64,000 bases of DNA from an uncultured Clostridia bacterium (GTDB lineage: Bacteria; Bacillota; Clostridia; Oscillospirales; Ruminococcaceae). Below are positions 36,997-49,333 of this stretch, piece by piece; position 1 is the first letter of the stretch; every line of letters starts with the position of its first letter. The stretch is taken from NCBI GenBank assembly GCA_947589035.1, contig CANPYZ010000010.1:1-64000 (forward strand), given 5' to 3'. The notes under the pieces were generated by a model that searched no databases, had not been told where the DNA came from, and saw only the letters and a program-made list of their open reading frames with translations. Position numbers and translations under genes: made by a program.

Positions 36997-37025
36997 TTGA
37001 TTTTTTCGAAAAAATTTTGTATAAT
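36997..37025 (+). promoter_or_regulatory. Promoter of pheA
   Basis: TTGATT (36997-37002) and TATAAT (37020-37025), 17-nt spacer. The leader to the ATG at 37074 is only about 40 nt, too short for a T-box or attenuator. Confidence 0.65.
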
Positions 37026-37073
37026 AGTAATAAGGGCGGTAACACTGCCAGTTATTTTACAGGAGGATTATTT

Positions 37074-38189
37074 ATGAATTTAGAAGAATTAAGAAAAGAA
37101 ATCAATGCGCTTGACACACGCATTCTTTCGGATTTCGCCGAACGTATGGAATTATGCAGGCAAGTTGCCCTGTATAAGCAGGAAAACGGCTTGCCAATTT
37201 TCCAGACTTCCCGTGAAAAAGAAGTCATTGAACGAATCCGGAAAAATGCCCCTGACGGGTTAGAAGGCTATTCTGCTGTACTGTTTCAGAATATTATGGA
37301 CATCAGCAAATATTTACAATACAGAGAATTGCACAAACATGTGCAGTCTTACGAATATCAGCCGTTAAAGCTTACTTCTTCCGCAAGCGTTGCCTGTCAG
37401 GGAACTGCCGGCGCAAATGCCGAAACTGCCGCAAAACAGATTTTCGGGAAAGAATGCCAGCCGAAATTTTTCTCCGGTTTTGCAGAAGTTTTTGAAGCCG
37501 TTCAGAATGGTGAAGTACAATTCGGAATTATTCCCGTGGAAAATTCCACTGCGGGAAGTGTTGTTCAGGCGTATGACCTCATGGCAAAATATAATTTTTA
37601 CATCTGCAAAACAACAACTGTAGAAGTCACAAACTGTTTCGCTGTTCGTAAAGGCACGAAATTATGGGACGTGAAAGAAGTGTATTCTCACCCGCAAGCC
37701 CTGTCACAGTGTTCAAGCTTTATCAATGTGCATGATATGCACCCTATGCCCTACAGCAATACTGCCACAGCAGCGGAAATGGTTTCCCAGTCTGACAAGC
37801 CCTATGGTGCAATCTGTTCCGAAAATTGCGCTAAACTGCACGGTTTAGAAATTCTTCAGAAATATATTTCCGACTACGTTCCCAATTATACACGGTTTAT
37901 CTGCATTTCGAAAGAATTATTCCTTCCTGAAAATGCTGACCGTATTTCCATTATGCTGAAACTTCCCCATGAAGAAGGCTCTCTCTACCGTTTATTAAGT
38001 AAATTTGTGATTGGCGGAATGAATTTGCTGAAAATTGAAAGCCGTCCTATTCAGAATGGCAGTTTTGAAGTCATGTTTTACTTAGATTTCAGCGGAAATA
38101 TTCATGATACTACTGTCTGTGCCTTACTTCAGGAACTGTCGGAAAATCTTGAATATGTGAAATTTCTCGGAAACTTCAATGAAATATAG
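37074..38189 (+). CDS. pheA: Bifunctional chorismate mutase / prephenate dehydratase
   Basis: 371 residues, three domains: an AroQ-type chorismate mutase at about 1-85 (LEELRKEINALDTRIL), a prephenate dehydratase at about 100-280 (GIIPVENSTAGSVVQAYDLM and TRFICIS), and a C-terminal ACT domain with the phenylalanine-binding KIESRPIQ motif. It makes phenylpyruvate for phenylalanine synthesis and should be feedback-inhibited through the ACT domain. The ATG at 37074 follows AGGAGG. It stands alone on its transcript. Confidence 0.95.
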   Translation: MNLEELRKEINALDTRILSDFAERMELCRQVALYKQENGLPIFQTSREKEVIERIRKNAPDGLEGYSAVLFQNIMDISKYLQYRELHKHVQSYEYQPLKLTSSASVACQGTAGANAETAAKQIFGKECQPKFFSGFAEVFEAVQNGEVQFGIIPVENSTAGSVVQAYDLMAKYNFYICKTTTVEVTNCFAVRKGTKLWDVKEVYSHPQALSQCSSFINVHDMHPMPYSNTATAAEMVSQSDKPYGAICSENCAKLHGLEILQKYISDYVPNYTRFICISKELFLPENADRISIMLKLPHEEGSLYRLLSKFVIGGMNLLKIESRPIQNGSFEVMFYLDFSGNIHDTTVCALLQELSENLEYVKFLGNFNEI

Positions 38190-42493: not shown

Positions 42494-43633
42494 TTATTCA
42501 AAATTTTCTAAAATTTTCCAATCTTCCGCAAGTAAATCTTCCGGAGAAGCTGACCACGGTGTCAATTTATTTTCAGTAGTTTTAATCGCAATGTAAGAAG
42601 ATATTTCCACGCCGTCAGAAGATTTAGTTTCCGGAATGAATTGTAAATAAATACCTTCCCCCCATGCAGCTCTTGTCACACGCTGATGATTTTGCAATGC
42701 GTTCATGACTTCCTGGAAAGTGGTTGAAGTTGAAGTTGTTGTTTTGGTTTTCGGGAAACTTTCTTCTGTAATCGTCTGTGTGCATAACCATTCCGTCCAA
42801 CGGGCGTAATCATCGCCGGAAACGTGAATACCGTCATCACTATGTTCCGGAGAAAGGCAATTTTCCTCATCATCAAATAACGGATTCACATCAAGGTAAA
42901 AGCTTTTTTTCCCGTCGGCTAATTCTTCAATGTAAGAATTGGCAATGTTAATTTTTTCGTTACTGATAGCGGGTTGTTCTTCAGAAGTCTGTGCGGAAAC
43001 ATGTAAATTCGCCATCAGGAAAATTAACGCATCTGGACACGCTTCACAAAGCATTTGATAAACTTCCTGAATGTGTTCATGAAATTCATCTAACCCGAAC
43101 GCCGTTTCATTCAAGCCGACCATAAGGTAAATTTTCCCGTATGAATGCGTATTTAATATGTCTTGCAATGTCCTGCCGTCAATTTCTTTTCCGTCAAGAA
43201 TTTCATAAGCTGCCAATCCGGCTGTACAGAAAAAATCTGCTTCCGGTATTGTTCCGTAATCCCGTAATCCTACCGTTCGTGAATCTCCGATAATTAACGC
43301 ATCTCTGAAATATGTTTCATCACTGGTGACGAATTTCACTGATTCAGTAATTTCTTCCGGTTCTGTTTCAGGTTCTGTAGTCTGTTCTGAACTGGAAACA
43401 GATTCTGTTTCTGTTTCTGAGTCTGATTGCGTAACTTCCGGAACAGTTTCTGTTGATTGCGTTTCTTCTGTCATGGAAGCTTTGCTCTTTAATTGGTGCG
43501 AGTTCCAGAATTGTTTAATCATGAACGGCGCAAGAATGAGATACGCTATGCAAAACAAACCCCCATAGCAATATTTTCTTAATTTGCGAAAATTCCATCT
43601 TTTTTTCCGTGTAGATACTAATTTCTTTGTCAA
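42494..43633 (-). CDS. Membrane-anchored SGNH hydrolase fused to a Tad2-like (DUF2829) domain, copy 1
   Basis: 379 residues. A membrane segment at about 22-42, a Ser/Thr/Glu linker to about 98, then an SGNH domain with LIIGDSRTVGL (S118), MVGLNETAF (N175) and DDGIHVSGDDY (D267, H270). Residues 305-376 match DUF2829, now called the Tad2-like domain: FQEVMNALQNHQRVTRAAWG ... LTPWSASPEDLLAEDWKIL. Topology predicts both domains outside the cell. The start is TTG 8 nt after AGG; a GTG and an ATG at 43642/43639 lie inside the ribosome site. SGNH proteins beside MBOAT genes usually O-acetylate polysaccharides. Last gene of the operon; paralogue of the next entry. Confidence 0.85.
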   Translation of the reverse strand: MTKKLVSTRKKRWNFRKLRKYCYGGLFCIAYLILAPFMIKQFWNSHQLKSKASMTEETQSTETVPEVTQSDSETETESVSSSEQTTEPETEPEEITESVKFVTSDETYFRDALIIGDSRTVGLRDYGTIPEADFFCTAGLAAYEILDGKEIDGRTLQDILNTHSYGKIYLMVGLNETAFGLDEFHEHIQEVYQMLCEACPDALIFLMANLHVSAQTSEEQPAISNEKINIANSYIEELADGKKSFYLDVNPLFDDEENCLSPEHSDDGIHVSGDDYARWTEWLCTQTITEESFPKTKTTTSTSTTFQEVMNALQNHQRVTRAAWGEGIYLQFIPETKSSDGVEISSYIAIKTTENKLTPWSASPEDLLAEDWKILENFE

Positions 43634-43650
43634 AGTCATCACCTATCCGC

Positions 43651-44724
43651 TCATTCAAGAATAAACCAGTCTGTGGCAAGCATATCTTCCTGACTGGCTA
43701 CCCATGTTACAATTTTGCCGTCTGCCGTTTGTTTCTGAATGCGAGTTTCTTCGCTGGAAGAATCTAATTTCAGAAAAATATTTTCATCATTCCAGGCTTT
43801 TCGGGAAACGAATTGATTATTTTTCAGACTTTCTATTGCTTGTCCGAAATTCATTCCTGGCGCAGCAGCGAGCTGACTTTGTTCTGTAACGGTATGTTCA
43901 CACAGCCAGTCACACCAATCCGGATAACATGTAGCATATGGATGAACACCGTCTCCTGTTAAATCTTCCGGCAAAGAGCCGTCCTCATCATCAAATAACG
44001 GGTTGACATCTAAATAAAATACTTTCTCATCGTCACATAATTCTTCCAGTACTTCATTGAACATGTTAATTCGTTCATTGCTTTCAGAAGGATTATTTGC
44101 ACTGTATGCTGATGTTACATGCAGATTCGCCATCAGGAAAATTAACGCTTCCGGTTCATATTGCCGGACTTCTTCCATTAACTGCACCATGCCGTCCCTG
44201 AATGATTCCGGACTGTCTGCCACTTCATTCAAGCCTAACATGATATATACTTTTCCGAAATCCCGTTCGTTGCACTTTCGGGAAAGCGTGTCGCCGTCAA
44301 CGATTCTGTCGCCAGTGACTTTATACGTGGATAACCCTACTGCACAAAGAAAACTGGATTTTTCAAATGTTCCGTAATCCCGAATATCTACCATTCGAGA
44401 ATCGCCGATAAATAACGCATCGTCAAAATAGGATTTATCGCTTTTCACGAATTTTGACCCCGGTTCTAATGGTACTGTTTCCACTGGTTCTGTTGATTTT
44501 TCCTGTTCGGAAGAAAATTCCGCTGCCGGTTGAGTGGCTTTAGTTTCAGTAATTTCTGTTGTTTCTGTCGGTTCAGAAGTTTCTTCCGCAACAAAAGCCG
44601 TTTTCACGGGCTTTTTCTCTTCAACAGCAGTTGTTTTCAACACATATCCGGTAATTAACGGCGAGGAAATCAGAAAACTAATTCCTACTATGCCTAAACT
44701 AATATTTTTTGTGATTTTTTCCAT
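43651..44724 (-). CDS. Membrane-anchored SGNH hydrolase fused to a Tad2-like (DUF2829) domain, copy 2
   Basis: 357 residues. Membrane segment at about 9-29, Thr/Glu linker to about 90, SGNH domain with LFIGDSRMVDI (S109), MLGLNEVAD (N166) and GDGVHPYATCY (D258, H261). Residues 291-357 resemble DUF2829/Tad2: MNFGQAIESLKNNQFVSRKA and VTWVASQEDMLATDWFILE. The two copies share order, linkers and motifs such as ALIFLMANLHV and FYLDVNPLFDDE, so they come from a tandem duplication, but they differ enough to have separate substrates. The start at 44724 has AGGAAG. It lies 13 nt after the MBOAT gene. Confidence 0.85.
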   Translation of the reverse strand: MEKITKNISLGIVGISFLISSPLITGYVLKTTAVEEKKPVKTAFVAEETSEPTETTEITETKATQPAAEFSSEQEKSTEPVETVPLEPGSKFVKSDKSYFDDALFIGDSRMVDIRDYGTFEKSSFLCAVGLSTYKVTGDRIVDGDTLSRKCNERDFGKVYIMLGLNEVADSPESFRDGMVQLMEEVRQYEPEALIFLMANLHVTSAYSANNPSESNERINMFNEVLEELCDDEKVFYLDVNPLFDDEDGSLPEDLTGDGVHPYATCYPDWCDWLCEHTVTEQSQLAAAPGMNFGQAIESLKNNQFVSRKAWNDENIFLKLDSSSEETRIQKQTADGKIVTWVASQEDMLATDWFILE

Positions 44725-44737
44725 GAAATTCTTCCTT

Positions 44738-46141
44738 TCAGAACCGGAAATATAAGAACGGGTCATTCATGCCTTTATACATGCAATACACGCAGCTGAA
44801 AAATACGCCTAAACATAAAACAGAAACAACTTCCGGAGCGTGTTTGATTTTCTGCCAGATTTTTTGCGAAACAGGTAAACAGAAAAATACTGCGGCAACA
44901 AAATATTTCCAGTAAGTTCCCAAATACCGGAGATAATCGCCTTCAGCTACTCTGCCCATTGTTTCATGCGGTAAAAATGGCAGAAGTTTCTGGAAATAAA
45001 TTCTGATGTCGTGCATGTCCGTAATCGCAAATAATACCCATGTAAACGAAATCAAAATCAATAAGTAATAATGCCCGAGTATACGATGTTCATTCAGATA
45101 TTTCCCCGTGAATAATTTTTCCGTCAGCATAATGACGAATAAGGCAAGCCCCCACAGAATAAAATTCCAGTTTGCCCCATGCCAGAAGCCTGTTAATAAC
45201 CAAACAATCAGCATATTCCGGATTGTTCGTAATTTTCCTTTCCGGTTTCCGCCTAAGGGAATATAAATATATTCCCTGAACCATGAACCCAGCGTAATAT
45301 GCCAACGCCGCCAAAATTCCGTCATTGTGATGGACAAATACGGCTGATTGAAATTTTGCGGAAGATGAAATCCCATGAGTAACCCTAAACCAATCGCCAT
45401 TAGAGAATACCCGTAAAAATCGAAATACACCTGAAATCCATATGCTGCTACTCCCAACCATGCTAACGGCGTGGAAATGCTTTCAAAACCAATTGTTTCT
45501 ATTTCTTTCCATAAACCGCCAATCTGATTCGCTATCAGTACTTTATAGCCTAAACCTGCCGTGAAAATTTTCAAGCCCTCATCAATATTTTTCAGGGAAT
45601 GTTTTCTTTCCCGTAATTCTACTTCAATTGTATCATAAGTGACGATTGGTCCGGCGATTAGCTGCGGAAACATGGAAATATATGCTCCGTAATCAATTAA
45701 GCTCTTTGAGGCTTTTGTTTTATTCCGGTACACGTCCACAAGATAAGACAAATTCTGAAACGTGTAAAAACTTATCCCAATCGGCAGAAGAATATTTCTT
45801 TCCGGAATATTCATATGTAATATATTGTTGACGTTCGTCACGAAAAACCCCGAATATTTGAAAAACATCAGCCACCACAAATTATAAATCACACCAAGAA
45901 CTAATAATAATTTCCGGTGTTTTTCCATGTCCTGAATTAACCAGCCCAGCAAAAAATTAATTAAAATTGTCTGAACGAACAATTCAATATAGATTTTCGC
46001 ATCAAGAACGCCCATGCTGTAAAATACAACACTCCCTACGAAAATCACTAAATTTTTCAATCTCGTAGTAGGAACAAGCGCATAAACTAAGAAAAATATT
46101 GGCAAAAAAATAAAAATAAACTCTATACTGCTGAAAACCAC
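44738..46141 (-). CDS. MBOAT family membrane O-acyltransferase (AlgI/DltB-like)
   Basis: 467 residues, about ten membrane segments. The MBOAT core is clear: PQLIAGPIVTYDTIE, FWRRWHITLGSWFREYIYIP and LLTGFWHGANWNFILWG, the last with the catalytic histidine. Such proteins pass acyl groups across the membrane to a partner, usually an SGNH protein, which attaches them to an extracellular polymer. Here two SGNH partners follow. The polymer (peptidoglycan, teichoic acid or exopolysaccharide) is not shown by sequence. First gene of the three-gene operon. Confidence 0.93.
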   Translation of the reverse strand: MVFSSIEFIFIFLPIFFLVYALVPTTRLKNLVIFVGSVVFYSMGVLDAKIYIELFVQTILINFLLGWLIQDMEKHRKLLLVLGVIYNLWWLMFFKYSGFFVTNVNNILHMNIPERNILLPIGISFYTFQNLSYLVDVYRNKTKASKSLIDYGAYISMFPQLIAGPIVTYDTIEVELRERKHSLKNIDEGLKIFTAGLGYKVLIANQIGGLWKEIETIGFESISTPLAWLGVAAYGFQVYFDFYGYSLMAIGLGLLMGFHLPQNFNQPYLSITMTEFWRRWHITLGSWFREYIYIPLGGNRKGKLRTIRNMLIVWLLTGFWHGANWNFILWGLALFVIMLTEKLFTGKYLNEHRILGHYYLLILISFTWVLFAITDMHDIRIYFQKLLPFLPHETMGRVAEGDYLRYLGTYWKYFVAAVFFCLPVSQKIWQKIKHAPEVVSVLCLGVFFSCVYCMYKGMNDPFLYFRF

Positions 46142-46777: not shown

Positions 46778-48412
46778 TTATACCTCTTCCTCGTGAATAA
46801 ATGAGGGGATGCTTCCCGTATCCGGAAATTCTGTAGATTCTGTCACAATTTCCGTTTTCGGGGAAAATGTTTCTGTGTTTGAATTTTTTCCGGATTCGTC
46901 CGGGAAATTATTGTTTTCTGTGTTCCCTGCATTTTCTGCTTTTTTTCTGTTTTTATTTTCTTCAATCAATGCTAAAACAAAACTCGTTCCGAAATACAAA
47001 ACAAACAGAATTGCTTCCAGAATCAGTATCGTTTCTTCAGAAGAACCGATAATATTTTTCACGGTCACTAATGCGGAGCTGCTTGCCGGTACAAGAATAC
47101 TATATGCATTCGCTAAATAAACTGTTTTGTAATATTCTTCTGCGGTTGCGTTGACTTCTTCCATTAACTGATTGATTTTTTCATTCAGGGAAGCAAGGTC
47201 TTCTTCTATTTTTTTCACTTGCTTTTTGGAAGCAGCGGAAGTACTTTTCATTTTGGTTAATCTTTCCTGTGCTTTCTGAATTTGCTGTTCATAGTTGGAC
47301 ACTTTTTTCTGAGCTTCAATTTTCTGGTTAATTAAGTCATTATACGCATCGGAAGATTGTGTATATTCGCTGACATCTTGCCCTTCTCCGCCGTAAACAA
47401 TGATTGTATCTTTTTCATAATTTTTAATAGAATCCGTTACCGTTTTCAGTTCATCTTCAGCAACTTTCTTGTTTCTGGTCAGTTCTTCAATCCTGTAATT
47501 ATAATATGCTTCGAGGGAAACTTTGTCTTTTGTCACGTTATTGACCGTAATGTAAGAAGTCAATACATCAAGGTCTACATTACGAATCATGGCAACAGAT
47601 TCAGAAAGGTCAGAAAACGTGTGTCCCGTTGTGGTAGAACAAAATCTGGTTTTGTCTGTTTTGGAAAGATTATCCAGATAAGTTTCTATTCTGTCAAGAG
47701 TGGAATCAAATACATCTACTGCCTGGGAATAATCATATTCTGTATAATCCAGTGTACTGATTGCATTTCCTAATGCCTGATTGACACCGTACATTTCGAA
47801 AAAATACTCTGAATAGCTTGTCAGAATCGTATTGAATAATTCCACAGCAACTTTTCCTTCCAGTCCTGTACCGGAATAATTGAATGTCAGATTATATTTT
47901 GTCGGATTCACGTCTACTTCCAGCATTTTTTCGCCGGCGTTTAAATTGCCTTCTTCATAAATGCTTTTATACATGTTGATTTTATCCTGTGCATTCGGAG
48001 GAATTACCCCTTCCACAGAAATATTCTGCCGGACACTTTCGAGCAAGGACAAATCTAAATTCATCGCTGTCAATGCTTTTTCCAGCACAGCAGGATTTTT
48101 CATTGATGCGCTTGCATTGAAATCACTGCCATCAGGAGCTTTTCCTTTTTCAATGCCGCTATAATTAAAGCTAACGGTTGCTGTAAGATTTTTATGTTGG
48201 TCTGCGGCAAATACAGCATAATATACCGGAACCAATATGCCGATAATCAACGCAATTGCAAGCCAAATCAACAAAAACCGTTTCAGCTGCTTGAAAATTC
48301 CGGAAAGCGAAATAATAATTTCTTCTTTTTCCTCTTCCGGATTCTGTAAAGTGACATTCAGGTAATGATTCTGGCTCTGGTTTTCATTTTGGTTTTGTTT
48401 CTGTTTATCCAT
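46778..48412 (-). CDS. Wzz-like polysaccharide chain-length / co-polymerase protein
   Basis: 544 residues. A Gln/Asn-rich N-terminus, first membrane segment at about 46-68 (LLIWLAIALIIGILVPVYYAVF), a large extracellular coiled domain (TVTDSIKNYEKDTI; KVSNYEQQIQKAQERLTKM), second segment near 450-475, and a Ser/Thr/Glu-rich cytoplasmic tail. This two-segment layout is that of Wzz/CpsC proteins, which set polymer length with a tyrosine kinase; no kinase gene is beside it. It follows the sugar-phosphate transferase gene, with a hairpin in the gap. Confidence 0.82.
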   Translation of the reverse strand: MDKQKQNQNENQSQNHYLNVTLQNPEEEKEEIIISLSGIFKQLKRFLLIWLAIALIIGILVPVYYAVFAADQHKNLTATVSFNYSGIEKGKAPDGSDFNASASMKNPAVLEKALTAMNLDLSLLESVRQNISVEGVIPPNAQDKINMYKSIYEEGNLNAGEKMLEVDVNPTKYNLTFNYSGTGLEGKVAVELFNTILTSYSEYFFEMYGVNQALGNAISTLDYTEYDYSQAVDVFDSTLDRIETYLDNLSKTDKTRFCSTTTGHTFSDLSESVAMIRNVDLDVLTSYITVNNVTKDKVSLEAYYNYRIEELTRNKKVAEDELKTVTDSIKNYEKDTIIVYGGEGQDVSEYTQSSDAYNDLINQKIEAQKKVSNYEQQIQKAQERLTKMKSTSAASKKQVKKIEEDLASLNEKINQLMEEVNATAEEYYKTVYLANAYSILVPASSSALVTVKNIIGSSEETILILEAILFVLYFGTSFVLALIEENKNRKKAENAGNTENNNFPDESGKNSNTETFSPKTEIVTESTEFPDTGSIPSFIHEEEV

Positions 48413-48446
48413 AATAAATATACACCCTTATTTGAATACTCAGTCT

Positions 48447-48473
48447 GGCAGAAACTGTTCAACAGTTTCTGCC
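48447..48473. repeat. Perfect inverted repeat at the end of the sugar transferase gene
   Basis: GGCAGAAACTGTT (48447-48459) and AACAGTTTCTGCC (48461-48473), 13-nt arms around one base. On the leftward transcript it straddles the stop codon at 48459 and lies ahead of the Wzz-like gene. No T-run, so probably not a full terminator. Confidence 0.6.
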
Positions 48474-49181
48474 GCTTAATACATGAAAAATTGTTTTGAA
48501 AATAATTTTAATATCCGTCCACAAAGACCGGTCTAATATGTATTTCCGGTCAAGTGCGACCTGTTTTTCGAAAGGAAGATTATTTTTCCCTCCGATTTGC
48601 CAATAACAGGAAAGCCCTGGAATCACGGATAATCTGTCAGCAGGCAATTTTTCCTGTTCGGACGGAATAAATGGTCTTGGTCCTACAACAGACATGTCCC
48701 CTTTGAGAATGTTAATCAGCTGCGGCAATTCATCAATCGAAAGTTTTCGGATAATATTGCCGACTCTGGTTACTCTGGGGTCTTTTTTCATTTTGAACGT
48801 TGCGCCTTTGCCTTCATTTTTGGCGAGCAATTCTTCACGGCGTTTATCCGCATCTTTGTACATGCTGCGGAATTTGTAAATTTTGAACGGCTTGCCGTCT
48901 TTTCCGATACGGGTCTGTGTGTAGAATGGCGTTCCGAAATCGTCCAGAACAATCAACCCCGCTGTCGCCACTAAAACGGGCGAAAGAATCGTCAGTGCGG
49001 TAACAGAACAAACAATGTCACCCATTCGTTTCAGTTTTTCGTAAACGGGCTTGTACAAAGGCTGTACTGCCGTTTCTAAAAGCTGTCGTTCTTTCTGAAT
49101 GGTGTCATTCGTGGTCATTTCAATTTTTGGTGTAGTGTGTTCTGCTTCTTCCTGATAGGCGAGATTAACATTTTTAATCAT
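48459..49181 (-). CDS. Polyprenyl-phosphate sugar-1-phosphate transferase (exopolysaccharide initiation)
   Basis: 240 residues of the bacterial sugar transferase (WcaJ/PglC-like) family. One membrane-inserting helix (VCSVTALTILSPVLVATAGLI, about 56-78), then FKIYKFRSMYKDADKRREEL, RKLSIDELPQLINILKGDMS and VVGPRPFIPSEQE, the core active-site text. It transfers a sugar phosphate to undecaprenyl phosphate, the first step of surface polymer assembly. The start at 49181 is set by a GGGGGAG site; the ATG at 49235 has none. The rest of an exopolysaccharide cluster is absent from the window. Confidence 0.9.
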   Translation of the reverse strand: MIKNVNLAYQEEAEHTTPKIEMTTNDTIQKERQLLETAVQPLYKPVYEKLKRMGDIVCSVTALTILSPVLVATAGLIVLDDFGTPFYTQTRIGKDGKPFKIYKFRSMYKDADKRREELLAKNEGKGATFKMKKDPRVTRVGNIIRKLSIDELPQLINILKGDMSVVGPRPFIPSEQEKLPADRLSVIPGLSCYWQIGGKNNLPFEKQVALDRKYILDRSLWTDIKIIFKTIFHVLSGRNC

Positions 49182-49333
49182 TTGAACTCCCCCTTTGGAT
49201 GAGTGGATATTCTTAAAAAGAATATCAGTTTTCATTTTCAGTGCAGTTTTTTATTAAAGTCTGTGAATCAGCATATATTCCGCCGTTTTCCCCTCAAAAA
49301 ACGAATGAAACAGAAGATATTCTGATTATCTTC

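Follow-up and report, generated by a model that had tools for sequence, protein, structure and literature searches.

A Tad2-like (DUF2829) domain at the C-terminus of two SGNH proteins in a probable envelope O-acylation unit of an uncultured Ruminococcaceae bacterium

Tad2 has been studied as a phage sponge that acts inside cells, which raises the question of what a domain of this family does at the end of two membrane-anchored and probably outward-facing proteins. The question is posed by three genes at 42494–46141 on the minus strand of the window, that is, of the whole 64,000-nucleotide stretch analyzed here (contig CANPYZ010000010.1 of assembly GCA_947589035.1, an uncultured Clostridia bacterium of the family Ruminococcaceae). 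According to the translations of the open reading frames, they form a single unit in the order MBOAT, SGNH-A, SGNH-B; the MBOAT and SGNH-A genes overlap by 29 bases, and SGNH-A and SGNH-B are separated by 8 bases. Both SGNH proteins, which share 40 percent identity, end in a Tad2-like domain, and this SGNH-Tad2 fusion is real and rare. The reading that we prefer, with a probability of roughly 0.4, is that the domain may bring the ectodomains of SGNH-A and SGNH-B together as a module for assembly, by analogy with the self-association of Tad2.

A preliminary description of the locus had assigned both C-terminal segments to the DUF2829 family on the basis of the motifs FGQAIESLK, FQEVMNALQ, and W-x-A-S-x-x-D-L/M-L-A-x-D-W, all of which were confirmed in the translations. 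The assignment was borne out by Pfam: the Tad2-like family PF11195 (cut-off 25) matched residues 305–369 of A with 64.6 bits (E = 1.2e-17) and residues 308–377 of B with 67.3 bits (E = 1.7e-18). The domains accordingly span residues 305–371 of A (43654–43854) and 308–377 of B (42512–42721), both on the minus strand. A sequence search of the PDB returned Tad2/AcrIIA7 chains for A (1.8e-9) and B (1.5e-7), and identity to phage Tad2/AcrIIA7 reached up to 48 percent over the aligned core. The Tad2 fold expected from this assignment was also recovered in the predicted structure of copy A, since all 24 PDB matches of the domain-only model with E ≤ 0.001 in Foldseek were Tad2/AcrIIA7 chains. The structure search with the whole protein A gave no Tad2 chain among the 50 matches listed, because the SGNH domain fills them. 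Two other explanations were considered and rejected. A separate cytosolic Tad2 product might start at the in-frame ATG at residue 305 of A, yet the preceding AGGA touches this ATG, and a Met occupies the position in just 1 of 12 fused copies. An assembly error does not agree with the presence of the fusion in six genomes.

Fusion A (43651–44766, minus strand, 371 amino acids) and fusion B (42494–43642, minus strand, 382 amino acids) both begin with a probable N-terminal membrane anchor. Hydropathy peaks at residue 22 of A (1.80) and residue 24 of B (1.83), the 20 residues preceding the peak carry a net charge of +3 and +10, respectively, and the model of A has an N-terminal helix at residues 8–46; the charge following the anchor is also positive (+2 and +3). 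Hydropathy and charge suggest one anchor per SGNH protein with the C-terminal part outside, and the outward placement of the Tad2 domain, as initially proposed, is probable. The setting is not that of a stand-alone cytosolic phage or prophage protein, as the domain is fused to an anchored protein within a unit of three genes, with neighbors judged by eye and topology inferred from hydropathy and charge.

The SGNH domains occupy residues 111–293 of A (43888–44436), where S123, N180, D272, and H275 are present, and Pfam residues 118–277 of B (42812–43291), where blocks I, II, III, and V are intact. They matched the GDSL family PF13472 (cut-off 32.9) with 59.4 and 46.0 bits, respectively. The GDS, Gly, and DxxH blocks, with Ser-Asp-His, were present in all 11 full-length fusions, ten of which also keep the Asn of block III. 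The exception is copy A of genome G315 (L030, 5115–6101), in which His replaces this Asn (GFHE) and the SGNH score of 21.4 bits falls under the GDSL cut-off; its Tad2 domain is retained.

The first gene of the unit (44738–46141, minus strand) encodes a DltB/PatA-like MBOAT acyltransferase of 467 amino acids (PF03062, 107.6 bits, cut-off 27) that ends in FLYFRF (44741–44758). This terminus was found in all six MBOATs read (five from fusion units and one from an unfused unit). It fits FXYXXF, which an excerpt of PMC12148441 describes as the acyl-shuttle motif, C-terminal in PatA-like MBOATs, whose Tyr passes acetyl to the SGNH Ser. Among the related loci, which are the best 80 of 452 relatives from named genomes, so that lower-ranked fusions could be missed, an MBOAT with a terminal FxYxxF preceded the SGNH gene on the same strand in 78, either overlapping it or lying at most 400 bases upstream; in the remaining two, the SGNH start lies no more than 340 bases from a contig end. 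The pairing with an MBOAT claimed at the outset is supported, as is polymer O-acylation as the likely setting. The unit is very probably an MBOAT-SGNH system for the O-acylation of a cell-envelope polymer, in which a single MBOAT serves two anchored SGNH partners. The Dlt system (DltB/DltD, teichoic acid D-alanylation) was also considered and was rejected, as the match to the NCBIfam DltB equivalog reached 149.8 bits where the cut-off is 375.

Of 38 genomes in the genus, six (G000, G298, G301, G311, G315, and G319) carry the SGNH-DUF2829 fusion, a search for which had been suggested in the preliminary description. In G298, one full-length fusion adjoins a second Tad2 frame (L037, 3–332), which is cut by the contig end with its SGNH part unseen; it is presumed to be copy A and is one of the 12 fused copies compared below. 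Other PF11195 proteins were present in G028, G307, and G318. The Tad2 domain occurred in five of the 80 related loci (L034–L038, on contigs of the same lengths as those of the other five fusion genomes) and was absent in 74, L113 being cut by a contig end; the unfused loci have one SGNH gene of this family each. No other genome in our samples of the family (297 genomes), class (391), and phylum (398), each of them a subset, encoded PF11195 in an open frame of more than 300 amino acids, and the longest such frame elsewhere in these samples had 255 (G1060).

A comparison of L035 and L036, the closest species pair, gave non-synonymous to synonymous rates (dN/dS) of 0.35/1.38 (A) and 0.30/1.01 (B) for the Tad2 domain, against 0.15/2.2 (A) and 0.11/0.96 (B) for the SGNH domain. 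The ratio for the Tad2 domain was about 0.25–0.30 in the closest pairs; dS was saturated in many others. Thus, the Tad2 domain is under constraint, although less so than the SGNH enzyme. On the SGNH tree, a branch with a support of 100/99 separates 76 SGNH-only rows from the full-length rows of A and B (11 in all); the tree carries a warning of long branches, L038_A foremost. The grouping of A with B fits one fusion followed by duplication. The SGNH genes of two contigs titled Alistipes (L050 and L080) nest among Ruminococcus rows on this tree, so the labels or bins of these metagenome-assembled genomes are probably wrong.

The distribution does not follow relatedness as judged from a marker, the chorismate mutase-prephenate dehydratase encoded at 37020–38189 of the window (PF01817, PF00800). 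The fusion was not found in the close relatives G297, G307, G310, and G028 (86–87 percent marker identity to this genome), yet it is present in G311 (85 percent), G298 (74 percent), and G315 (69 percent). Its lack in G310, which is 77 percent complete, may be a gap; the completeness of G297, G307, and G028 is 91–96 percent. The cassette MBOATs of G301, G311, G315, and G319 are 64–73 percent identical to the MBOAT studied here. Because close relatives lack the fusion, more distant ones carry it, and the surroundings differ, the patchy spread of the cassette agrees with either transfer or repeated loss.

Phage contigs commonly carry Tad2 as a stand-alone gene (at least 529 relatives), and the domain is likely to be of phage-type origin. 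Many phage Tad2 proteins (L170, L171, L174, L190, and others) carry, at the N-terminus, about 75 amino acids with a GYISWSP-type motif, and a 252-amino-acid protein of G1060 (L228, 1249–2007) has two Tad2-like stretches and lies between apparent phage head genes, as identified by reading. In phage contig L250 (1587–2630), a PF11195 gene lies 33 bases downstream of a GH25 gene, and in L251 (2219–3858), about 90 bases downstream of a GH25-CW_7 frame. In G307 (L033, 5501–6307, minus strand), a single GH25-CW_7-Tad2 protein was found with all three scores (48.0, 64.2, and 74.6 bits) above cut-off, in a frame that leaves the contig end. These cases illustrate how a Tad2 domain could become attached to a wall-active protein and do not indicate the donor of the SGNH fusion.

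The fused domains differ from their phage counterparts in several respects. In the alignment, F3, R18, W21, W52, L60, A61, D63, and W64 are kept in all 12 fused copies. G20, N22, and G23 occur in 0, 2, and 0 of the 12, compared with 82/82 in a phage set that is biased, being composed of the 80 loci, out of at least 529 relatives, that most resemble a phage-type query, together with two phage genomes; the WNG loop is also present in each of the four structurally characterized Tad2 proteins (SPO1, Hgm, Spt, and Mod). The Thr position of SQTD is a Glu in 12/12 fused copies and in 2/82 of the phage set. The spacer between the two Trp residues is 22–39 residues long (median about 30) in the fused copies against 34–60 (median 49, n = 82) in phage-type proteins, with overlapping ranges, and measures 47, 65, and 47 in SPO1, Hgm, and Mod Tad2. 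The net charge of the domain ranges from −2 to −13 in the 11 full-length fusions and, again with overlap, from −7 to +3 (median −1) in the 82 phage-type proteins. A Pfam-found comparison set (25 loci, 22 rows from 21 loci aligned) was mixed: of the 19 rows that have residues at the WNG columns, nine show WNG, and Glu occupies the Thr column in three rows. The losses of WNG and Thr are therefore not unique to the fusions and are seen in certain other members of DUF2829. According to an excerpt of PMC12043709, the gcADPR pocket is formed at loops b1-b2, b3-b4, and b4-a3, and the cyclic-dinucleotide site lies in an insertion between b2 and b5. By our own mapping from the predicted strands of model A (319–322 and 331–335), the WNG stretch would correspond to the b1-b2 loop; WNG is used here as a loop common to Tad2 proteins of known structure rather than as mapped ligand contacts.

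Taken with the PatAB system, these data suggest the following scheme. Acyl-CoA would supply an acyl group, which the MBOAT would attach to the Tyr of FLYFRF at its C-terminus and then pass on to the Ser of an SGNH protein; from there, the SGNH protein would transfer it to a presumed extracellular polymer. A Tad2-fold domain, most likely from a phage or prophage DUF2829 gene, would have joined the C-terminus of an ancestral SGNH protein, most simply once, before the fused gene duplicated into A and B. The domain, probably outside the cell, has lost loop features of the known nucleotide-binding Tad2 proteins and retained the fold core, and its self-association could hold SGNH A and B together near the MBOAT, possibly as a mixed tetramer. 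Several points weigh against this scheme. The structure model of A matches PatB (8tlb), but SGNH esterases and hydrolases outrank PatB in both structure match lists, and Block II here keeps the usual Gly, unlike in PatB, where it is Ser/Asn according to an excerpt of PMC12148441; for these two reasons, the SGNH domains could be hydrolases or esterases. Self-association is carried over by analogy from an intracellular phage protein, the Tad2 sponge being a homotetramer with gcADPR or cyclic dinucleotides as ligands, and the invariant residues could reflect the fold core alone. In addition, the faster evolution of the Tad2 domain (dN 0.30–0.35, against 0.11–0.15 for SGNH) implies only moderate constraint.

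The closest rival, possible but somewhat less so than assembly, is that the domain binds the acceptor and keeps the polymer close to the active site of the SGNH enzyme, as in AlgX, whose carbohydrate-binding module is likewise C-terminal (PMC4148444, excerpt). SGNH esterases with such modules at either end have been described (PMC9487903, excerpt), the G307 protein also has its Tad2-like domain C-terminal to a cell-wall enzyme, and the Glu at the SQTD Thr position common to all fused copies would suit this role. However, the G307 case is one protein with a frame that leaves the contig end, and because a phage Tad2 gene can follow a GH25 gene by 33 bases, it could have arisen from two adjacent genes running together; outside its core, the domain differs from one orthologue to another, and no report of a glycan-binding Tad2 protein turned up, although no search was aimed at one. 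It is doubtful that the domain is a passenger of little function or a mere stabilizing cap. Its faster evolution would agree with this, as would the 74 of 80 related loci without it and one more undecided; on the other hand, it is kept in both paralogues of the five units not cut by contig ends, and its dN/dS ratio speaks for constraint.

Less likely still is a role as sensor or sponge, in which the domain would continue to bind a small, nucleotide-like molecule in the extracellular space. The retained fold, together with R18, W21, W52, D63, and W64, leaves some room for such binding: Tad2 structures of the same fold with gcADPR, 1',2'-cADPR, hisADPR, and cGG exist (PDB titles), and the loss of Thr is not decisive by itself, given that ModTad2 also lacks the SQTD Thr and was nevertheless solved with hisADPR. 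Against it stand the missing WNG loop, the short spacer, and the acidic charge, and ThsB_TIR (PF08937) was not matched in this genome. With the loop and the Thr gone, the middle segment shortened, and the domain acidic, the nucleotide-like ligand suggested in the preliminary description is not supported, mixed as the comparison set is. It is very improbable, though worth stating, that the outward Tad2 domains bind a diffusible signal (ADP-ribose-type or other) from lysed or infected neighbors and so gate surface acylation; if true, a phage immune-evasion fold would have been turned into an extracellular danger sensor.

Upstream of the MBOAT, beyond four tRNA genes, the region at 46778–49235 (minus strand) encodes a sugar transferase (PF02397, 213.9 bits) and a 544-amino-acid protein that reads as a polysaccharide chain-length regulator, with no Pfam match above cut-off; these genes are a possible exopolysaccharide link for the unit. 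No conserved third partner was found among the ten neighbors scanned. Orthologous GGDEF genes (77 percent identity) lie beside the cassette in L027 (7359–8507) and L029 (9386–10534), and a different GGDEF protein adjoins it in L028 (11673–13397); this adjacency in three species may be chance.

A narrow look at the literature, with domain-architecture protein databases outside its scope, found no description of an SGNH-Tad2/DUF2829 fusion. If outward use of the domain is conserved in an envelope enzyme, the Tad2 fold would have uses other than sequestering nucleotides, which is a warning against labeling every DUF2829 protein as anti-defense. The locus also lends itself to the question of why certain MBOAT systems employ two SGNH enzymes.

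Among known systems, the unit resembles the PatA/PatB peptidoglycan O-acetyltransferase, in which an MBOAT with a C-terminal FXYXXF stands beside a membrane-anchored SGNH protein with Ser-Asp-His; it differs in having two SGNH partners that both carry a Tad2-fold domain at the C-terminus, in addition to the difference in Block II. The MBOAT-SGNH pairs of other Ruminococcus share the gene order, the terminal FxYxxF, and the SGNH family, but most of them have a single, unfused SGNH gene. Two SGNH proteins and an MBOAT are also found in alginate acetylation by AlgI, AlgJ, and AlgX, where AlgI is the MBOAT. The accessory C-terminal domain of AlgX (PMC4148444, excerpt) is likened to the Tad2 domain by placement, as the module there is carbohydrate-binding. 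With phage Tad2/AcrIIA7 (Thoeris anti-defense, DUF2829), finally, the domain shares the Pfam family and the fold; unlike these proteins, it is fused, membrane-anchored, and probably outward-facing, without the WNG loop and the SQTD Thr, with a shorter middle and an acidic charge.

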